NCBI GenBank assembly: GCA_023379055.1
Contig: JAMCSX010000016.1
Location: 1-39,794, forward strand
Length of the DNA stretch: 39,794 nt
Origin: Candidatus Martarchaeota archaeon
GTDB taxonomy: Archaea > Micrarchaeota > Micrarchaeia > Micrarchaeales > CABMGC01
Direction of reading: 5' to 3'
Shown: one piece after another, positions 13,929 to 39,465 of the stretch
Layout: the number at the start of each line of letters is the position of its first letter
How positions within the stretch are numbered: position 1 is the first letter of the stretch
The notes under the pieces: model-generated
What the model was told of the DNA's origin: nothing
What the model saw: only the letters and a program-made list of their open reading frames with translations
Databases searched by the model: none
Made by a program: the position numbers and the translations under genes

Positions 13929-14087
13929 CTATGTAGATATTCTTCCAGACATTATGCGAAGGAAGTGGGATATGCCTGCATACTGCAGGTTCATGTGATT
14001 AAGGGGCGCTGCTTCCGCGTATATTGCGCTCAGCAGTATAGCGCACAGCAGTATCGTGAAGATGATTACAATTCCATAAAACGACAC
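13929..14087 (-). CDS. Small single-pass secreted/membrane protein, last gene of pilus operon
   Basis: 52 codons from a GTG whose G is the last base of the upstream stop (TAGTG), the junction type used elsewhere in this window. The protein begins VSFYGIVIIFTILLCAILLS, one hydrophobic helix, followed by a short polar tail rich in small residues and His. No classic K/R-G-Q prepilin site is visible. Its tight coupling to the pilin genes argues that it is real and belongs to the pilus. Function unknown; a minor pilin or assembly peptide is possible. Confidence 0.6.
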   Translation of the reverse strand: MSFYGIVIIFTILLCAILLSAIYAEAAPLNHMNLQYAGISHFLRIMSGRIST

Positions 14088-14446
14088 TAGGCGGACACCC
14101 CTACGCAGACCATGCTTTCGCTGGATTCGTTTGCACAGTATATGTTTGAATAGTCCTGAGGCATGGAAGTATTGCTTATAATGCCTATGCTGCGTATGCC
14201 GTAGATCCAGTCATAGTAGCTGAAATTGCAGGCTGCTCCGCTTGCATTTGTTATGCACTGTTGCGAGGTCGAGTTTTGGGACAGCTGGCTTAGCAGGTCG
14301 TATGCAGCTGCGCTTGCAGAGACATTGCTGCGGGACATGGTGTAATAATGCTGGTAGTTGTTTAATATGGATGCGGCCGCGGACATCGATGACACTGCTA
14401 TGATAAGCGACGCTATGGCTTCTATAGTAGCAAATTGCAGCTTCAA
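14087..14446 (-). CDS. Pilin-like protein with class III-type N-terminus
   Basis: 119 aa. The N-terminus MKLQFATIEAIASLIIAVSS has a very short positive stretch, a Q near the expected cleavage site, Glu at +5/+6 and a hydrophobic helix, as in archaeal class III (EppA-type) prepilins. The exported part has several N-x-S/T sequons (for example NVS, NST, NAS, NFS, NTS, NES) and four Cys. The start ATG overlaps the upstream stop by 4 nt (ATGA). Confidence 0.75.
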   Translation of the reverse strand: MKLQFATIEAIASLIIAVSSMSAAASILNNYQHYYTMSRSNVSASAAAYDLLSQLSQNSTSQQCITNASGAACNFSYYDWIYGIRSIGIISNTSMPQDYSNIYCANESSESMVCVGVSA

Positions 14447-15696
14447 TTATTCACCAGTATCGCAGACCCTGCATACGAGAGTGCCTGGTTTCCAGTCACA
14501 TAATTGCTGCTTATGTTTGCTATAACAGTGTAGTAGAATGGGGATGCAGACCTGCAATCTAGCCCATTGACGTGCACCGAACAGGGATATTCCGTGCTGT
14601 TGGTAGCCGAGGCCACTAGCCTTGACTCTGCATTGTCGTATGCGTTCTCCGACTGTTGTATCAGGGACTCGCTTATTGGAAGTATTGTATTGTTGTAATA
14701 AGAGAGCATGGCATCAAGATTGTCGCGTGCCTGCTGGTACTGTCCTGCATAGGTTGAGTTTACATATTTAGTTGAACTGCCGGATAGAACCACAATCCCA
14801 GGTACGCTTGATTGGGAACTTATGTTTATTACAGAAGCGGTACCGACATTTGAACCGGAATAGGTTACTGGCGAGACGCTTGATGCGCTTGTCAGATATG
14901 TTGAGAGCTTGTACCTGCCGGTTATGCTCAGGTTTGCACCGTATATGTAATTTGCACCATATGCAGTTGGAGTCTGCAGATTGTACCCGGATGCGTATGG
15001 GACGACGCATACGGTCCGCGTAGGGTCGCCGTAATCGCTGCATCTTTGTGAGTAGAGCATATAGCCCCAGGAGCTCGAACCGCACTGCTGTGCCATGGTA
15101 TATGGATGGCCGGTCCATGTCCTGAACGAACAGAATGACGATATGCTTAGCAGATACACGCTCTTGTTGCTCATCGGATACCTGATGCTCTCGTTCCTTC
15201 CGGAGATGTACGCTGAGTATGAAACTGGAGATGCGGGGCTTCTCGGGGCGTAGGATACAGTAGAGAGATTCTCTGAGCCGGCATATGACCTCCCCTCGCA
15301 TGCGAGTGTGTATTTAGCGTATATGTTATTTGTGCCGTTGCCAGGGACGAATGACCCGTGCCATACCTGCATTGAGAAGAAGCTGCTGTTTATCCTTGAC
15401 GGGCTGAATGAAGTTGTATTCGAATCAAGCGAGATTGTGGCAGTGCCATTATTGCATCCGTAAACCATTATTTCCATATTGTTTTTCTGGCCTGCAGATG
15501 AGCTTGCCGGTATATTTATCTCTGCATATGGCCTCTGGAAGTAGGTCTCGTTTGACTGAAGAGCATAGTTGTATGGGAGGCTTGGTATCTGCTTTGCATG
15601 GGCAAATAGCCCGCTGTACTGCGCTATGGCGCTCACCATCAGCACGCCTATCGCCCCAGTAATCACCAGGAACTCCAGGCTTGTTTGAATTTTCAT
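14443..15696 (-). CDS. Large pilin-like or adhesin protein (417 aa)
   Basis: Starts MKIQTSLEFLVITGAIGV, a class III prepilin signal: short basic stretch, Q, then SLEF and a hydrophobic helix to about residue 25. The remaining ~390 residues are extracellular, Ser/Tyr/Asn-rich, with about twenty N-x-S/T sequons and several Cys, so it is probably a heavily glycosylated surface protein. Three to four times larger than its neighbours, it may be a tip adhesin. No known domain recognised. ATGA overlaps couple it to both flanking genes. Confidence 0.75.
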   Translation of the reverse strand: MKIQTSLEFLVITGAIGVLMVSAIAQYSGLFAHAKQIPSLPYNYALQSNETYFQRPYAEINIPASSSAGQKNNMEIMVYGCNNGTATISLDSNTTSFSPSRINSSFFSMQVWHGSFVPGNGTNNIYAKYTLACEGRSYAGSENLSTVSYAPRSPASPVSYSAYISGRNESIRYPMSNKSVYLLSISSFCSFRTWTGHPYTMAQQCGSSSWGYMLYSQRCSDYGDPTRTVCVVPYASGYNLQTPTAYGANYIYGANLSITGRYKLSTYLTSASSVSPVTYSGSNVGTASVINISSQSSVPGIVVLSGSSTKYVNSTYAGQYQQARDNLDAMLSYYNNTILPISESLIQQSENAYDNAESRLVASATNSTEYPCSVHVNGLDCRSASPFYYTVIANISSNYVTGNQALSYAGSAILVNN

Positions 15697-16031
15697 CTAA
15701 TCACCGCAAGACGCGTTATGCCGCTTATCTCAATAACCCTGCAGAATGCATGTGCGCATTCGCCGTAGTTGTTCACGTCGGTAATATACAGCGATGCGTT
15801 GTAGTAGTGCGCAATTTTTCCGGCAATAGCCGTCCCGTTTTGGTAGCTGCCGTGCGCGAAGGCCTCTGCGGATATCATCTGCTGTGATATGCTGTAGTAC
15901 CTTATGCTGGAATACTCGGACAGCGAGTATGAGGAAAGGTAGGACTGGCTGCCGTATATGCCGGCAAACAGCAGTGAAATCGATGCCAGTGCCAGTGGTA
16001 TTGCTATTGGGCTATCGGAGGCTATTATCAT
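15693..16031 (-). CDS. Pilin-like secreted protein
   Basis: 112 aa from ATG 16031 (MIIASDSPIAIPLALAS, then SISLLFAGIYG). One N-terminal hydrophobic helix, then a Tyr/Ser-rich exported domain with two Cys (YGECAHAFCR). The canonical basic-Q processing site is missing, so it may be anchored and not cleaved. A longer frame to 16184 exists, but it runs through the neighbouring pilin gene, so I use the ATG just after that gene's stop. Confidence 0.65.
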   Translation of the reverse strand: MIIASDSPIAIPLALASISLLFAGIYGSQSYLSSYSLSEYSSIRYYSISQQMISAEAFAHGSYQNGTAIAGKIAHYYNASLYITDVNNYGECAHAFCRVIEISGITRLAVIR

Positions 16032-16035
16032 GGAG

Positions 16036-16224
16036 TCACATACATCCGCAGAGGTTTGACATTTCAGAAGAGTAATTATTCGAGAGCATTGCGCGCACAT
16101 ATATGGAATTGGCTGAAGACCCGGAGAGAGCGTTTGCATGGGCATACACGGGATATGCAGCAGCAATGAAGCAGAATGCGACAACTATGCTGAGAATCAG
16201 CTCGAGGCTTGCCTGTATCCTTAT
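16036..16224 (-). CDS. Small class III pilin with apparent AUA start codon
   Basis: 62 codons: reading from ATA at 16224-16222 gives (M)RIQASLELILSIVVAFC, an ideal class III prepilin signal almost identical in pattern to MRAQMSLE and MKIQTSLE in the neighbouring genes. The ATA shares its first A with the upstream stop (TAATA), exactly where TAATG would be expected. GAGGTGG ends about 5 nt upstream as a ribosome binding site. No ATG, GTG or TTG lies between the preceding in-frame stop and the signal peptide. Either the gene starts at AUA or its start codon has been lost. The mature part is only ~55 residues with two Cys. Confidence 0.65.
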   Translation of the reverse strand: MRIQASLELILSIVVAFCFIAAAYPVYAHANALSGSSANSIYVRAMLSNNYSSEMSNLCGCM

Positions 16225-16583
16225 TAACCCACCTCAAAATACCCGGATCTTTGCGTTATGTTTGCGTTTACTGTGCCGGACTTGCATAATAATGACCGCT
16301 TTATGCTTACCGGCTCTGCAAAATACAGGGTGTCGTTGGCTACGGCAATCGAATCCCGGGTTTCGGTGGAATTGCAGACACCTTCGGGCACATACAGGCT
16401 TACTGCAGATGCCCCGTTCATCAGCGCCATGTTTATCGCCTCCACGAAATTAGAGTATTCGTATGATGACGATGCCCTGGCGCTGCTTGCATAATATTCT
16501 GACACCACGGATAGAGAGTACACGAAGGATACACCTGCAAGAAGCACGTATACAAGCACCTCCAGCGACATCTGTGCCCTCAT
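16224..16583 (-). CDS. Class III pilin-like protein
   Basis: 119 aa. MRAQMSLEVLVYVLLAGVSF is a class III prepilin signal (R-A-Q, then SLE and a hydrophobic helix). The exported part is Ser/Ala-rich with two Cys and a few N-x-S/T sequons (NST, NDT, NIT). Its TAA stop shares one base with the ATA start of the next gene. Confidence 0.75.
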   Translation of the reverse strand: MRAQMSLEVLVYVLLAGVSFVYSLSVVSEYYASSARASSSYEYSNFVEAINMALMNGASAVSLYVPEGVCNSTETRDSIAVANDTLYFAEPVSIKRSLLCKSGTVNANITQRSGYFEVG

Positions 16584-16585
16584 GC

Positions 16586-16852
16586 CTATGCCTTTGTTGA
16601 CAGCTCGGAAAGCTGCTTGGATATTGCCTGGCTTATGCTCATGTTCGTGCCATTTATGCTTACCGTGCCCGCAACCGCTGACTTCATCTTCACTATCATT
16701 GCAAGCGCTATCAGGATCACTATGCTCGCAGCGGAGAGCATCATTATGTACTCCAGCGAACCCTGTGCCCGGCCCCTCTTTGCAAGCAGGAAGAATGCCC
16801 GCGCCTCCATTGGTATTGCCTTTTCTATCACTTCATACACCTCATATAGCAT
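16586..16852 (-). CDS. Class III pilin (possible major pilin)
   Basis: RGRAQGSLEYIMMLSAASIV is a textbook class III site: basic residues, A-Q, S-L-E-Y and a long hydrophobic helix. The mature protein is only ~55 residues, the size of small archaeal major pilins. Two starts are possible: ATG 16852, overlapping the upstream gene, or ATG 16810 (MEARAFFLLAKRGRAQ), which has AAAAGG upstream and a signal of normal length; I favour 16810. It is the first pilin after the machine genes. Confidence 0.75.
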   Translation of the reverse strand: MLYEVYEVIEKAIPMEARAFFLLAKRGRAQGSLEYIMMLSAASIVILIALAMIVKMKSAVAGTVSINGTNMSISQAISKQLSELSTKA

Positions 16853-17582
16853 AAGTAATAATTGATGACGACATAACGATTATTGCTGCACCTATTGCTG
16901 CCGCTTGTATCGACCCTATGATGGCATTTCCCTGCCTTCCGAATGGCCTGAAGCGAATAGTTACATAGCTCATTACTGCGACATATATTACAATCAGCAT
17001 CTCGAATGAGCTCTTCATTAGGGCGACATCAGAGTTGAGTATTGCCCCTGATGCGCCGATTATGCTTGCGCCTATTCCGCCGAATAGCGGGACAAAGAAG
17101 GCTATGCCCACCTTGGATATTACATCCATGTTGAGCGAGTTGCGCATGATCCTGTTTTTGCTCTCCAGGTCAGCTTCAAGATTTGCAGTAAACATCTTCA
17201 GGTCCTTGCTTATGTCCATACCACGCTGCAGGCCGAGCATCAGCATGTCATATAGCTCGCTTATTAGCGGATTGCTTGGCCTCTGGCACGTATCCCCGCC
17301 CCCGAGCTTGGTCCTTATTGAAAGCTCCTTTATCTCATTTGGAGAGGATTGGCCATTCAGTGCTTCTGCAAGAGCATGGTTAATGCCCTTCTCGGCACAG
17401 AGCCGGCTTAGCGATTTTGAGAATGACAGTATGCCGTATTCTTCGGATTTTTCCGCCCTGATGTGCAGATACCAGTATGCAACTGCGATTGACATTGACA
17501 CTGCGATAAACTTCCACGAAAAGAACGAGAGTGTCACTAGAGGGATCTGGGCTGCCGCGTAGACTATCTCGGATCTATCCAT
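16842..17582 (-). CDS. T2SSF-domain pilus platform protein, second half
   Basis: 246 aa, TadB/TadC/FlaJ-like polytopic protein: two hydrophobic segments near the N-terminus (8-38), a cytoplasmic T2SSF helical domain (about 50-150, SKSLSRLCAEKGINHALAEA, then LMLGLQRGMDISKDL), then three membrane segments. Together with the preceding gene it makes the two T2SSF halves that are fused in archaellum FlaJ. Overlaps its upstream neighbour by 8 nt. Confidence 0.78.
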   Translation of the reverse strand: MDRSEIVYAAAQIPLVTLSFFSWKFIAVSMSIAVAYWYLHIRAEKSEEYGILSFSKSLSRLCAEKGINHALAEALNGQSSPNEIKELSIRTKLGGGDTCQRPSNPLISELYDMLMLGLQRGMDISKDLKMFTANLEADLESKNRIMRNSLNMDVISKVGIAFFVPLFGGIGASIIGASGAILNSDVALMKSSFEMLIVIYVAVMSYVTIRFRPFGRQGNAIIGSIQAAAIGAAIIVMSSSIITYAI

Positions 17583-18267
17583 ATAACCGCCTGCTCAGAG
17601 ATGAGCTTGAAAGTGCGTACATTATTGGAAGTGCTATTATCAGCAGCAGGGACATGCCGCCAATGCTTGCGCTTCCTGGTGATATCAGCATGTTCCCGAT
17701 GAATGAGAATATGATGAAAGAAGGCGCAACTGTTGATATGAACATGTTGACAGTGGAGTATCTGAGCATTGCAGAGCTGTTTTCTGCGTCCCTCTCATTT
17801 TGATGAAGTTTGTATGAAGAGAAGGCTGCGCCGAAGTCCACATCATGTTGATTAGTGTAGGGCTCGAGCAGGTCGTGTATCCTTCTTTCAGGCAATGATG
17901 CCGAGTCAACGGCCTTTGGCAGGTCCTCGCCAAGCCCCATGCGGATGACTGCATGCCTTAATATGGCTGTGGAATTGTTACTGATACAGGATTTTGCAGC
18001 ACGCTCCATGGCGCTTACAACAGGGATCCCGGATTTCCTGTAATATGAGATCCTGCCTGACGCATTCATAAAGTCATCGGCACGCAGGGAGGACTGGCGC
18101 AGTGAGGCGGACATTCCGTAAAGCGTATTCAGAATCGCAACCGCGCAGGCGGACATGACAATGTCAATTGCCATATACAGAGGACTTATGCCAGAGTCTG
18201 CATATGATATTACCCAGCCTAGCGCAACAGAGCATGACGCACCCAGGATTAATGACTTCTTATCCAT
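17575..18267 (-). CDS. T2SSF-domain pilus platform protein, first half
   Basis: 230 aa with two N-terminal membrane segments (6-24, 31-52), a cytoplasmic domain with ISYYRKSGIPVVSAMERAA and MGLGEDLPKAVDSAS (a T2SSF-like repeat), and two C-terminal membrane segments. It starts one base after the ATPase gene. Separate genes for the two halves recall bacterial TadB-TadC, and differ from the single fused archaeal platform gene. Confidence 0.75.
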   Translation of the reverse strand: MDKKSLILGASCSVALGWVISYADSGISPLYMAIDIVMSACAVAILNTLYGMSASLRQSSLRADDFMNASGRISYYRKSGIPVVSAMERAAKSCISNNSTAILRHAVIRMGLGEDLPKAVDSASLPERRIHDLLEPYTNQHDVDFGAAFSSYKLHQNERDAENSSAMLRYSTVNMFISTVAPSFIIFSFIGNMLISPGSASIGGMSLLLIIALPIMYALSSSSLSRRLYG

Positions 18268-18268
18268 C

Positions 18269-19759
18269 TCACCATCCGCAGTATTTCATTATTTCCTTTC
18301 CGATGTCCTTTCCGCATTCAAAGCATTCGGATATTAGCCTTGATCGCCTGTCAAACTCCTTCGCAGCGTCTTTCTGACTTATGCAGCGCAGCCTTGAATA
18401 TGCAGACAGCGCCTTTGACTCGCGCATTAACTGCCGGTTTGGCTTTGCGCCAGATACGATGTCGGTTATGCTGACCATATCCTCATCCCCTATTTCTACG
18501 CCCTCGTCAGCCTCGCCCCTGCTCAGCCATCTGTACTCGAATATTCCGGATATGGATCTCCCGTTTATGTCGATCTGCCGCATATACACTGCAGCATCAA
18601 GCATGCTAAGGCTCTTTGTCTCGACGCACATCGGCTTTACCATGAGCTTCTTGAGTATCTGCATGCCGCCGTCGCTGCTGTGCATGGTTGCTGCGAAAGA
18701 TATTCCTATGTTGGCTCCCATGAACAGGTCCTTTGCCTCTTCGCCGCGCATCTCGCCGACTATCACCCTGTCGGGCCTCATCCTTAGCGAGTTTATCACC
18801 TGCTCTTTTGGACCGACGGAGTTGTACCTTGATCCGTAAAGTCCCACCATATTATATGCCGATTCGCGCCTTATCTCGTTTATGTCTTCCTCTATGGTAA
18901 CTATCTTTTCGTTAGACGGCATCATCGCAGTAAGTGCGCTAAGAAGCGTGGTCTTTCCGCTTGCCGGAGCTCCGGATATTATGATATTCTGCTTTGATTC
19001 AAGTGCAATCCAAAGATATGCCAGAATGTCGGGAGCCGTGGTCCCTGATTTGAGTATATAATTCAAGTCTATCTCCTTTCTTCCTCCGACCCTTATAGAC
19101 GCTGCCGCTCCGCTTAGCGCATATGGCCTGATCTGCGCATGGATCCGGATATCTGCAACCTGTGAGTCTATTATCGGGGTGTTCTCGCCAAGCTCCTTCT
19201 CGGTGTTGCATATGAGCCTGTTTATTGCGCTTCTGAAAGAATGCTCCCCAGTGAATCTGAGGTTTGTGATGCATCTGCCGTACCTTGTGGAGTACACTAT
19301 TATGCTCGAATCGGGCGAGTTTACCTCTATCTCCTCTATATTATGCCTGTCTTCTAGAAGTATGCTTATTGGCCCGTAACCAGCGGTGTCATGGGCCACC
19401 AGATAAGAAAGCATGTCAGCCTTCTCAGGACTTGCTATCTCCATAAGCCTTGCCTTTGCTATCGACTGCGCTTCCTTTATGCTTGGCAGTGCTGAGGATT
19501 GGAGGGAACAGGCATATGAAAGAAAATGCGCCTTTGCCATTTCCATGCAACGCGTGTCGTTCGGGGTTATAGCAGCCTCAAGTGAATACAGGTAGCCGTT
19601 TCCTGATTTTGATATTGCCCTGCGCGGATTATACCCGTTCTCCTCTATAACATTGGCGCTTTCCGGCTGAAGCAGGTCAAACCCGAGCTTTGAACTTGCT
19701 TCGTCGGTTCTTGTAGGCCTTTTGAATAGCCCCATCGGGATTTGAATTTTGCGGAACAT
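18269..19759 (-). CDS. TadA/VirB11-like secretion ATPase of type IV pilus system
   Basis: 496 aa from ATG 19759 (MFRKIQIPMGLFKR); a TTG six bases earlier is less likely. It powers pilus assembly at the cytoplasmic membrane. Walker A GAPASGKTTLLSAL, Asp box TIEEDINEIR, Walker B PDRVIVGEMRGEEA and His box FAATMHSSDGG are all intact, with the N-terminal domain LVAHDTAGYGPI before them as in TadA/GspE-2 proteins. AAAAGG precedes the start. First gene of the ten-gene operon that ends at 13929. Confidence 0.93.
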   Translation of the reverse strand: MFRKIQIPMGLFKRPTRTDEASSKLGFDLLQPESANVIEENGYNPRRAISKSGNGYLYSLEAAITPNDTRCMEMAKAHFLSYACSLQSSALPSIKEAQSIAKARLMEIASPEKADMLSYLVAHDTAGYGPISILLEDRHNIEEIEVNSPDSSIIVYSTRYGRCITNLRFTGEHSFRSAINRLICNTEKELGENTPIIDSQVADIRIHAQIRPYALSGAAASIRVGGRKEIDLNYILKSGTTAPDILAYLWIALESKQNIIISGAPASGKTTLLSALTAMMPSNEKIVTIEEDINEIRRESAYNMVGLYGSRYNSVGPKEQVINSLRMRPDRVIVGEMRGEEAKDLFMGANIGISFAATMHSSDGGMQILKKLMVKPMCVETKSLSMLDAAVYMRQIDINGRSISGIFEYRWLSRGEADEGVEIGDEDMVSITDIVSGAKPNRQLMRESKALSAYSRLRCISQKDAAKEFDRRSRLISECFECGKDIGKEIMKYCGW

Positions 19760-19777
19760 GGACAAGCCTTTTACTTT

Positions 19778-36578: not shown

Positions 36579-36583
36579 AGAAT

Positions 36584-39438
36584 GTTTAAACTAAGCCACC
36601 TAGGGGATGGCTAGGCTCTGATAGCGACGAAGTCCGTGGCAAGCTGCGATAAGCCCAAGGTAGGCGCAAGTCGGCCTTTGAACTTGGGATAGACGAAATG
36701 TGCGCCTTGAATAGAGGCGCGAGCGCACGCGTGGAATTGAAATATCTTAGTACACGCAGGAGGAGAAAGAATATTCGATTCCGTAAGTAAAACGATTGAA
36801 AGCGGATGAGGGCAAACCGAATTATCCATTGTGAAATGGATTAGATGTGGGCTATGTATGAACTCATGAAGTCTGCCAAAGGGTCTGGAAAGACCTGCCA
36901 AAGAGAGTGACAGCCTCGTAGGCTAAACTGAATGAGTCTTGTAGCAGGAGAGTAGTGCGGCTTTGTTGTGCCGTACGAATACGGGGCATTAAACCCCAAC
37001 CCTAAATATTGATCAGAGACCGATAGCGAACAAGTAGCGCGAGCGAAAGCTGAAAAGAACCCACACGCGTGGGATTGAAATAGATCTGAAACTAGGTGGT
37101 TACGAGAAGGCAAGGCGTGGAAGGAATGAAAGGTTCCGAAGAGAAGATGCGAGAGCATCAATCGAGGTTCCGGGACTAATGTCTTGTCATTCTTCTCGAA
37201 GCAAGAGCCAGGGAGTGCATTGTGGTGGCGAGCTTAACAGCGAAGTGAAAGCGAGAGCGCGCAAGCAATGAGGCGCTGGGCATGAAAATGCCTTGAGTCA
37301 CCATAATTCGACCCGAAGCCATTGTGATCTACGCGCGGCTAGGACGAAGTCGAGTTTACGCTCGATGGAGGTCCGCAACCTGTCATGGCATGTCCTGTTG
37401 GGTGAGCTGCGGGTAGGGGCGATAGACCAATCGAACATGGCAATAGCGGGTCCCCTCCGAAGTATCTTTAGGATAGCCTCAGACGAGCTTGCACACGAGG
37501 TAGAGCTACCGATTAGAAAGATCGGATCCGAAAGGGTCCACTTTCCCGTCAAACTCCGAATTCGTGTGCTGTGTAGACTCTGGGAGTCGGCGACGTTGGG
37601 TAAGCTAGCGTCGCGATGCTGTAAAGACAGTATCCGAGGTTAAGGTCCCTAAATCTTGATTAAGTGTATCAAAGGACGGCAGTGGCTTAGACAGTCGGGA
37701 GGTAGGCTCAGAAGCAGCCATCCTTTAAAAAACGCGTAATAGCGTACCGATTGAGTCATTGCTCTCCGAAGATGGACGGGGCTAAATCAAGTACCGAAAC
37801 CTCGGCGTGAAATTCGGGTAGGAGGGCGTTCTGTGTGGTTAGAAGTTTGGTCTTGCGATCAAATGGACCATACAGTAGAGAAAATCCTGGTATTAGTAAC
37901 AGCATATACAGGCGAGAATCCTGTACGCCGGAAGCACAAGGTTTTCCTTGCAATGATCGTCAGCTGGGAGTTAGTCGATCCTAAGCACAGAGCTAATCAC
38001 TACTGTGCAAAAGGGAAGTCCGTTAATATTCGGACACTTATCACGTAGGCGTGGCAACACAAGGCGGATTTCTGACGCTTGAGGATAGGCCTGCAAACAG
38101 GTGCAAATGGCCGCGGAGTCCCATTATGGGGAGAAACGGCTAAATGAACTGACAATGGCCAAATTCTTGAGCCAGTGAAAAGGGAATCCGCAACGATCGT
38201 GATGATCCGTACCTAGAACCAGTACAGGTGCTGCTGGCTGAAAAAGCCAAGGCGTGTCAGGGGAACCCGGGTTAGGGAAATCGGCAAAATAGTGGCGTAT
38301 GTTTTCTAAAAGCCATGTCTGCGCTTGGTAAGCGCAGATAGCATTATCAAGGGAAGAACGACTGTTTATCAAAAACACAACTCACCGCACAGCCGAAAGG
38401 CTTTGTACAGTGGGTGACGCCTGCTCACCGCTAGTCAGCGAAACTCGGTTTCAACCGAACTAAGCCCTAGCAAAGAGCGGGAGTAACTCTGACTCTCTTT
38501 AGGTAGCGTAATACCTCGTCACTTAATAGGTGACTTGCATGAAGGGCGTAACGATTCTTCCACTGTCCCAACTCGGGACCTGGTGAACTTACTACGTGGT
38601 GTACATGCCACGTTCTTTCAGTGGGTAGCGAAGTCTCTATGAAACTTGACTATAGCCTGTTGCTGTTGTGTGATGGATACTGCACAGTGTAAGTGGGAGC
38701 GCCGATGCATGGTCTTCGGGCCATGCTGAGCGACAATGTAACACCACTCTGCATCCATTACGCGACTTACAAATAACATTGGACAACTGCAGGTGGATAG
38801 TTGGACTGGGCGGTTGCTTTCGATAAGGAAACGAAAGTGATCAATGCTCTGCTTAACTGGTTTGGAAAGCCAGTGTGAAGCGTAAAGGCAAATGCAGGGC
38901 TGACTGTATCTCGAAAAGCGTGAGATGCAGACGGGAAACCGAGACTTAACGAACGTTGGATGCCTTTTTAATGGGGCACCAAGCTGTCAAACAAGTTACT
39001 CTAGAGGTAACCGGTTCGTGGCGGGTGAGAGTTCACATCGACCCCGCCGTTTGATACACCGATATGGGCTTAGGTTATCCTGGGGGTGCAGGAGCCCCCA
39101 AGGGTTGGACTGCTCGTCCATTAAAAACCTACATGAGCTGAGTTCAGTACGTCGCGAGACAGTACGGTAGCAACTACTGGAAGTGTTAGTGTCAGAGGAT
39201 AACATCTTTTTAATACGAGAGGAACGAAAGATGGGCGCCTCTAGTGGACCGGTTGTCGAGAGGCACTGCCGGGTAGCCACGCGCTAAACGGATAAGCCCT
39301 GAAAGCATCTAAGGGCGAAGCCGTATCCGAAACGAGACACTTAGGGTGGCCGTATTACACGGCTTTGATAGGGCGGGCGTGTAAGCAGGAAGCTTCGGCG
39401 ACCTGTGAGCGCACCGCAACTAAATCCTAACTTAAAAC
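36584..39438 (+). rRNA. 23S ribosomal RNA
   Basis: About 2.85 kb of colinear 23S sequence, ends approximate. Landmarks: 5' CCTAGGGGATGGCTAGGC, the GTPase centre AGAAGCAGCCATCC, a helix 69-71 region (38480-38510), the peptidyl-transferase ring (38630-39150), and the sarcin-ricin loop TACGAGAGGAAC near 39214. I see no inserted intron. Several bases that are almost invariant in other organisms differ here; see findings. Paired changes in helices indicate a folded, evolving RNA and not random decay. No 5S or 16S gene adjoins it. Confidence 0.95.
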
Positions 39439-39465
39439 TTTTAGAAAAAGTTTTATCAAAACATC

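Follow-up and report, generated by a model that had tools for sequence, protein, structure and literature searches.

A probable AUA start codon in a pilin gene of a Micrarchaeota genome and near-cognate starts in related genomes

A small class III prepilin gene in an archaeal type IV pilus operon, here called pilin 3, has ATA at its start position and probably encodes a functional minor pilin that is translated from AUA. The gene lies on contig C16 of a Micrarchaeota MAG (862 kb, 28 contigs), and the whole of this contig, 39,794 nucleotides in length, is the window analyzed in this study. The source genome appears to have lost the usual start codon of pilin 3 but to have kept the open reading frame (ORF), the prepilin signal, and a Shine-Dalgarno-like site. 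The best reading of this pattern seems to be near-cognate initiation, that is, initiation at a one-base neighbor of ATG, by the ordinary initiator tRNA, aided by a strong Shine-Dalgarno-like site and by stop-start coupling. Near-cognate starts are apparently a family-wide habit, of which the AUA pilin is one case.

The pilus operon is read from the minus strand in the order T2SSE ATPase, two probable platform genes, identified by their position, and a series of small pilins, so that pilin 3 is encoded together with a pilus ATPase and putative platform genes (Table 1). The minus-strand reading at the start of pilin 3 is TTT TGA GGT GGG TTA ATA AGG ATA CAG GCA AGC CTC GAG. Between the in-frame TGA and the prepilin signal there are only the codons GGT GGG TTA ATA, with no ATG, GTG, or TTG, which leaves no canonical start between the upstream stop and the conserved coding sequence, and GAGGTG stands ahead of the ATA at a spacing suited to a Shine-Dalgarno-like site. 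The predicted N-terminus, (ATA)RIQASLELILS..., combines a QxSxE-type cleavage motif, a hydrophobic stretch, and a very short basic N-terminus, as in class III prepilins; its signal consists of (M)RI before the predicted cleavage point and QASLELILSIVVAFCFIAAAY after it, and the mature frame is 59 aa long. The same form of signal is present in the orthologues, and the QxSLE core recurs in three neighbors as QGSLE (pilin 1), QMSLE (pilin 2), and QTSLE (the large pilin-like protein). The Pfam family Class_IIIsignal (PF04021) does not match pilin 3, a short protein, and matches pilin 1 below the cut-off. The mechanical ORF list omits pilin 3, the longest product listed in its frame being a 37-aa internal GTG fragment. 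A preliminary description of this DNA had drawn attention to the signal shared with the neighbors, the ATA at a TAATA junction, the Shine-Dalgarno site about 5 nt upstream, the lack of a standard start between stop and signal, and the likelihood that ORF callers would miss the gene, and each of these observations was borne out here.

Table 1. Coordinates of the pilus operon, of the elements around the start of pilin 3, and of genes with near-cognate starts elsewhere. Positions without a locus prefix refer to the window.
Feature	Position	Strand	Remarks
Type II/IV secretion ATPase (T2SSE)	18269..19765	-	PF00437, E=1.3e-21
Second probable platform protein	17575..18267	-	Position and hydrophobicity
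Probable pilus platform protein, TadC-like	16842..17582	-	Position; no Pfam match
Pilin 1 (..RAQGSLEYIMM..)	16586..16852	-	Conserved operon anchor; weak Class_IIIsignal match below cut-off
Pilin 2 (MRAQMSLEVLV..)	16224..16583	-	ATG start
In-frame TGA	16234..16236	-	Upstream bound of pilin 3 frame
Shine-Dalgarno-like GAGGTG	16230..16235	-	5 nt before ATA
Pilin 2 stop TAA	16224..16226	-	Shares one base with ATA (TAATA)
ATA at pilin 3 start position	16222..16224	-	Relatives have ATG, TTG, or ATT there
Pilin 3, small class III prepilin gene	16036..16224	-	62 codons plus stop TGA; orthologues known
Pilin 3 closing stop	16038-16036	-	
Gene after pilin 3 (MIIASDSPIAIPLALASISL..)	15693..16031	-	
Large pilin-like protein (MKIQTSLEFLV..)	14443..15696	-	ATG overlaps preceding stop (ATGA)
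Last small pilin-like gene (MKLQFATIEA..)	14087..14446	-	TTG overlaps preceding stop (TTGA)
aIF5B	L113:9993-11747	-	Source genome, contig C17; named by GHVDHGK motif
uS4	L202:3489-4100	+	G039, single-contig genome
aIF2alpha	L196:11398-12150	-	G039; Pfam match
Coiled-coil gene, CTG start	L132:12342-13070	-	Homologues L284-L313

Comparison with related genomes, which the preliminary description had proposed as a check, suggests that the AUA is used. A syntenic prepilin is present in six other genomes of the genus that have the operon. Judging from these orthologues, pilin 3 is a real gene and not a chance frame, since at the same operon position they stop 59-60 residues past the Q of the signal. 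The homologous codon is ATG in three of these genomes (G004, G005, G009) and TTG in two (G006, G007), while the sixth (G008) has ATG one codon earlier; within its genus, only the source genome departs from the canonical set. Two genomes from other genera (G048 and G033) have ATT at the homologous codon and no canonical alternative: in the former, on a 727-kb contig, a 24-codon open stretch contains no canonical codon, and in the latter the ATT directly follows the upstream stop. Each of these two ATT orthologues (L073 and L076, respectively) follows a GGTGA-type site.

The ATG and TTG codons in the genus, and the fact that ATA is one transition away from ATG, are also what would be expected if a recent mutation had destroyed the start codon and left pilin 3 as a young pseudogene whose frame has yet to decay; a very recent loss-of-function mutation would give the same picture, with ATG or TTG in the sister species. 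We regard this explanation as unlikely. The preliminary description had held that relatives with ATG, together with loss of the product in this strain, would count against the gene, and the first part of that expectation was found, but the frame, length, signal, and Shine-Dalgarno-like site of pilin 3 are all intact. Stops and frameshifts offer a far larger mutational target than the start codon, so that decay would be expected in the long frames as well, and no prepilin match in the survey described below fell under the length limit.

The survey drew on 66 pilus operons from within the order, in which 150 class III prepilins were located; a second family was sampled less fully. A start was called canonical if ATG, TTG, or GTG occurred within 12 codons of the Q. 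Canonical starts were found in 145 prepilins (ATG in 120, TTG in 15, and GTG in 10), and in 108 of the 145 the start lies exactly three codons before the Q. The remaining five prepilins all have a near-cognate codon at the start position: ATA in pilin 3, ATT in G048 and G033, CTG in G058, and ACG in G100, the last being less certain because of a possible local duplication. The same kind of change has therefore arisen independently in otherwise intact prepilins of five genera, which argues against a young pseudogene in the source genome. Three further prepilins of the second family (L100, L107, and L111) have ATA at the -3 codon; these have an in-frame ATG nine codons upstream and were left uncounted. 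The preliminary description presented AUA initiation as a great rarity, and pilin 3 is indeed alone among the 150 prepilins in having ATA as the sole possible start, but it is not an isolated case, as near-cognate starts recur in the family.

Shine-Dalgarno-like matches of at least 5 bases precede three of the five near-cognate starts, compared to 44 of the 145 canonical starts and 21 of 450 random sites, in a scoring for which the anti-Shine-Dalgarno sequence of the host itself could not be read, the 16S rRNA being absent from the MAG. At pilin 3, GAGGTG matches GGAGGTGATC over 6 bases, as strong a match as is seen at only 15 of the 145 canonical starts and at 2 of the 450 random sites, and the site is thus among the strongest in the prepilin set; its retention also speaks against a pseudogene. 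The small-subunit (16S) rRNA gene was looked for in the MAG and not found; the window does contain an archaeal LSU rRNA gene, at 36579-39443.

A gene for a coiled-coil protein, located behind a GT4-like glycosyltransferase gene (named by eye), begins with CTG in all 30 loci examined, which span seven genera. The codon stands in the context GGCGATT..CTG or a close variant, it is the first codon behind the stop in 12 loci, and in 27 of the 30 the stretch from the upstream stop to the CTG has no ATG, GTG, or TTG in frame. In six loci the first canonical codon falls 127-197 codons into a frame of 217-248 codons. In two homologues, in G114 (L302) and G113 (L303), an ATG is in frame four codons upstream of the CTG, which makes them a natural point of comparison for the CTG start. 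By this comparison, neither sequencing error nor fresh mutation can explain the conserved CTG. Its retention across seven genera indicates that near-cognate initiation works in the source family, often at stop-start overlaps (CTGA, TAACTG), and this again weighs against a dead pilin 3; on the same comparison, the TAATA of the pilin operon is this arrangement with AUA.

Near-cognate starts are not restricted to these genes. All conserved stop-to-stop ORFs were compared in samples from seven genomes. The source genome contributed approximately 400 kb, and G048, G039, and G064 contributed 400 kb apiece; G007 was covered over 297 kb, G008 over 80 kb, and G004 over 20 kb. Among 1,129 well-conserved ORFs, about 1% had near-cognate starts, which is a lower bound, since a canonical codon that happens to lie upstream hides a gene from the comparison. 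The gene for aIF5B in the source genome begins ACG ATA AGG CAG where its relatives have ATG ATA AGG CAG; across 20 aligned loci there are 17 ATG starts and one each of TTG, GTG, and ACG. In G039 the ribosomal protein gene for uS4 has ACG, compared to ATG or TTG in 28 others, and aIF2alpha has ACG both in G039 and in its sister species G102, the latter with an ATG two codons later. Further cases are ACG for phosphoglycerate kinase in G007 and CTG directly behind TAA for a DEAD-box helicase in G008 (both named by motif), CTG in G048 versus TTG in G007 for a conserved 309-aa protein, and ATT in the source genome versus ATG in G007 for a zinc-finger protein. Several candidates, including PheT in G007 and a gene listed as dnaK, were dropped from the survey due to an ATG just downstream preceded by a Shine-Dalgarno site, or to overlap with an rRNA or tRNA gene or another frame.

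The sequence is that of a MAG and the single genome of its species available for comparison, and a sequencing or assembly error in which the true base is G would restore ATG to pilin 3. Such an error is quite improbable. Five errors in 150 start codons would imply a base error rate of about 1%, enough to break most genes, but among 1,485 non-overlapping conserved ORFs the splits amounted to three nonsense and eight frameshift cases, several of them in mobile-element genes. The small number of broken conserved ORFs argues against decay as well as error, and near-cognate starts also occur in assemblies with long contigs (771 kb in G039 and 727 kb in G048).

It is very improbable that pilin 3 starts at another codon, such as the TTA in frame directly before the ATA or the GGG, or that the abutting frames of pilin 2 and pilin 3 are fused by a frameshift: the ATA occupies the codon that is ATG, TTG, or ATT in relatives and that is the start of 108 of the 145 canonical prepilins, a fusion would leave the N-terminal signal of pilin 3 inside a longer protein, and a conserved frameshift is ruled out because the spacing and relative frame of pilins 2 and 3 vary among genomes.

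Initiation at AUA would be expected to involve the ordinary machinery. Loss of the fidelity factor aIF1 was rejected as a cause, as 70 of the 79 family genomes, the source genome among them, have SUI1. An initiator tRNA with a CAU anticodon is present in the source genome, and no special initiator with a UAU anticodon was found among the 30 of 34 tRNA genes that could be typed. The sole UAU tRNA seen (L045, C7:10634-10746) resembles an elongator tRNA-Ile with an intron-like insert, which suggests that the reading of AUA does not depend on the usual modified CAU tRNA. Of the Ile codons in the source genome, 72% are AUA, and internal AUA codons align with Ile in 59% of cases and with Met in 3.6% in orthologues; the code is therefore unchanged, and reassignment of AUA to Met was rejected.

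For translation from AUA, a plausible course of events is that a ribosome terminating pilin 2 at its TAA would be held by GAGGTG and re-initiate on the overlapping AUA, where Met-tRNAi(CAU) would pair with a third-position mismatch, TAATA standing in for TAATG. The ATGA and TTGA overlaps at other junctions suggest that such coupling is habitual in the pilus operon. A class III prepilin peptidase would then cut (M)RIQASLEL before the Q. The weak AUA codon would probably lower the output of pilin 3 relative to its neighbors, which would suit a minor pilin.

Near-cognate initiation as such is already known. The gene infC, for translation factor IF3, starts with ATT in E. coli and ATC in Streptomyces, where sigR starts with GTC, and these weak starts are repressed by IF3 (PMC5472188). 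Pilin 3 would resemble infC and sigR in being a genuine gene whose start is not ATG, GTG, or TTG and which gene finders miss or misannotate; those genes, however, are bacterial and IF3-repressed, whereas pilin 3 is an archaeal pilin gene with an AUA codon. The ACG starts of aIF5B and aIF2alpha recall infC, autoregulation being a guess, and in aIF5B of the source genome the ACG may be an archaeal counterpart of the autoregulatory infC start. In its available text, a review of initiation in archaea lists AUG, GUG, and UUG only and makes no mention of near-cognate starts (PMC7531240); canonical archaeal starts use the same initiator tRNA and Shine-Dalgarno-type upstream site as proposed for pilin 3. 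In the accessible part of a reconstruction covering 61,358 ancestral AUG starts, there were two switches from AUG to CUG and one to AUU, with none listed to AUA, and switches to CUG or AUU were of the order of 1 in 20,000-60,000 (PMC5622118). In a literature search mostly outside subscription journals, the matches for AUA starts were mitochondrial papers and one bacterial paper, and none described such a start in an archaeon. In comparison to archaeal class III prepilins of the EppA type, such as the Methanococcus pilins, pilin 3 shares the short signal ending before Q, the QxSLE motif, the hydrophobic stretch, and the setting of a small-pilin cluster with a type IV ATPase, but differs in its putative AUA start and in having no Pfam match.

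We lean toward the view that start-codon selection is relaxed in this Micrarchaeota family, with AUA, AUU, ACG, and CUG functional in approximately 1% of conserved genes, among them genes that encode initiation factors or a ribosomal protein, and with CUG kept family-wide in the coiled-coil gene, where it probably serves dosage or autoregulation. Gene finding in archaea presumes AUG, GUG, or UUG starts. If near-cognate starts are regular in these minimal genomes, annotation would truncate or drop genes that encode initiation factors, ribosomal proteins, and pilins. These archaea would also offer a natural set for testing how aIF1, aIF2, and aIF5B control the fidelity of start-codon choice. With the same set it could be asked if weak starts adjust subunit ratios or serve autoregulation, the role of AUU in bacterial infC.
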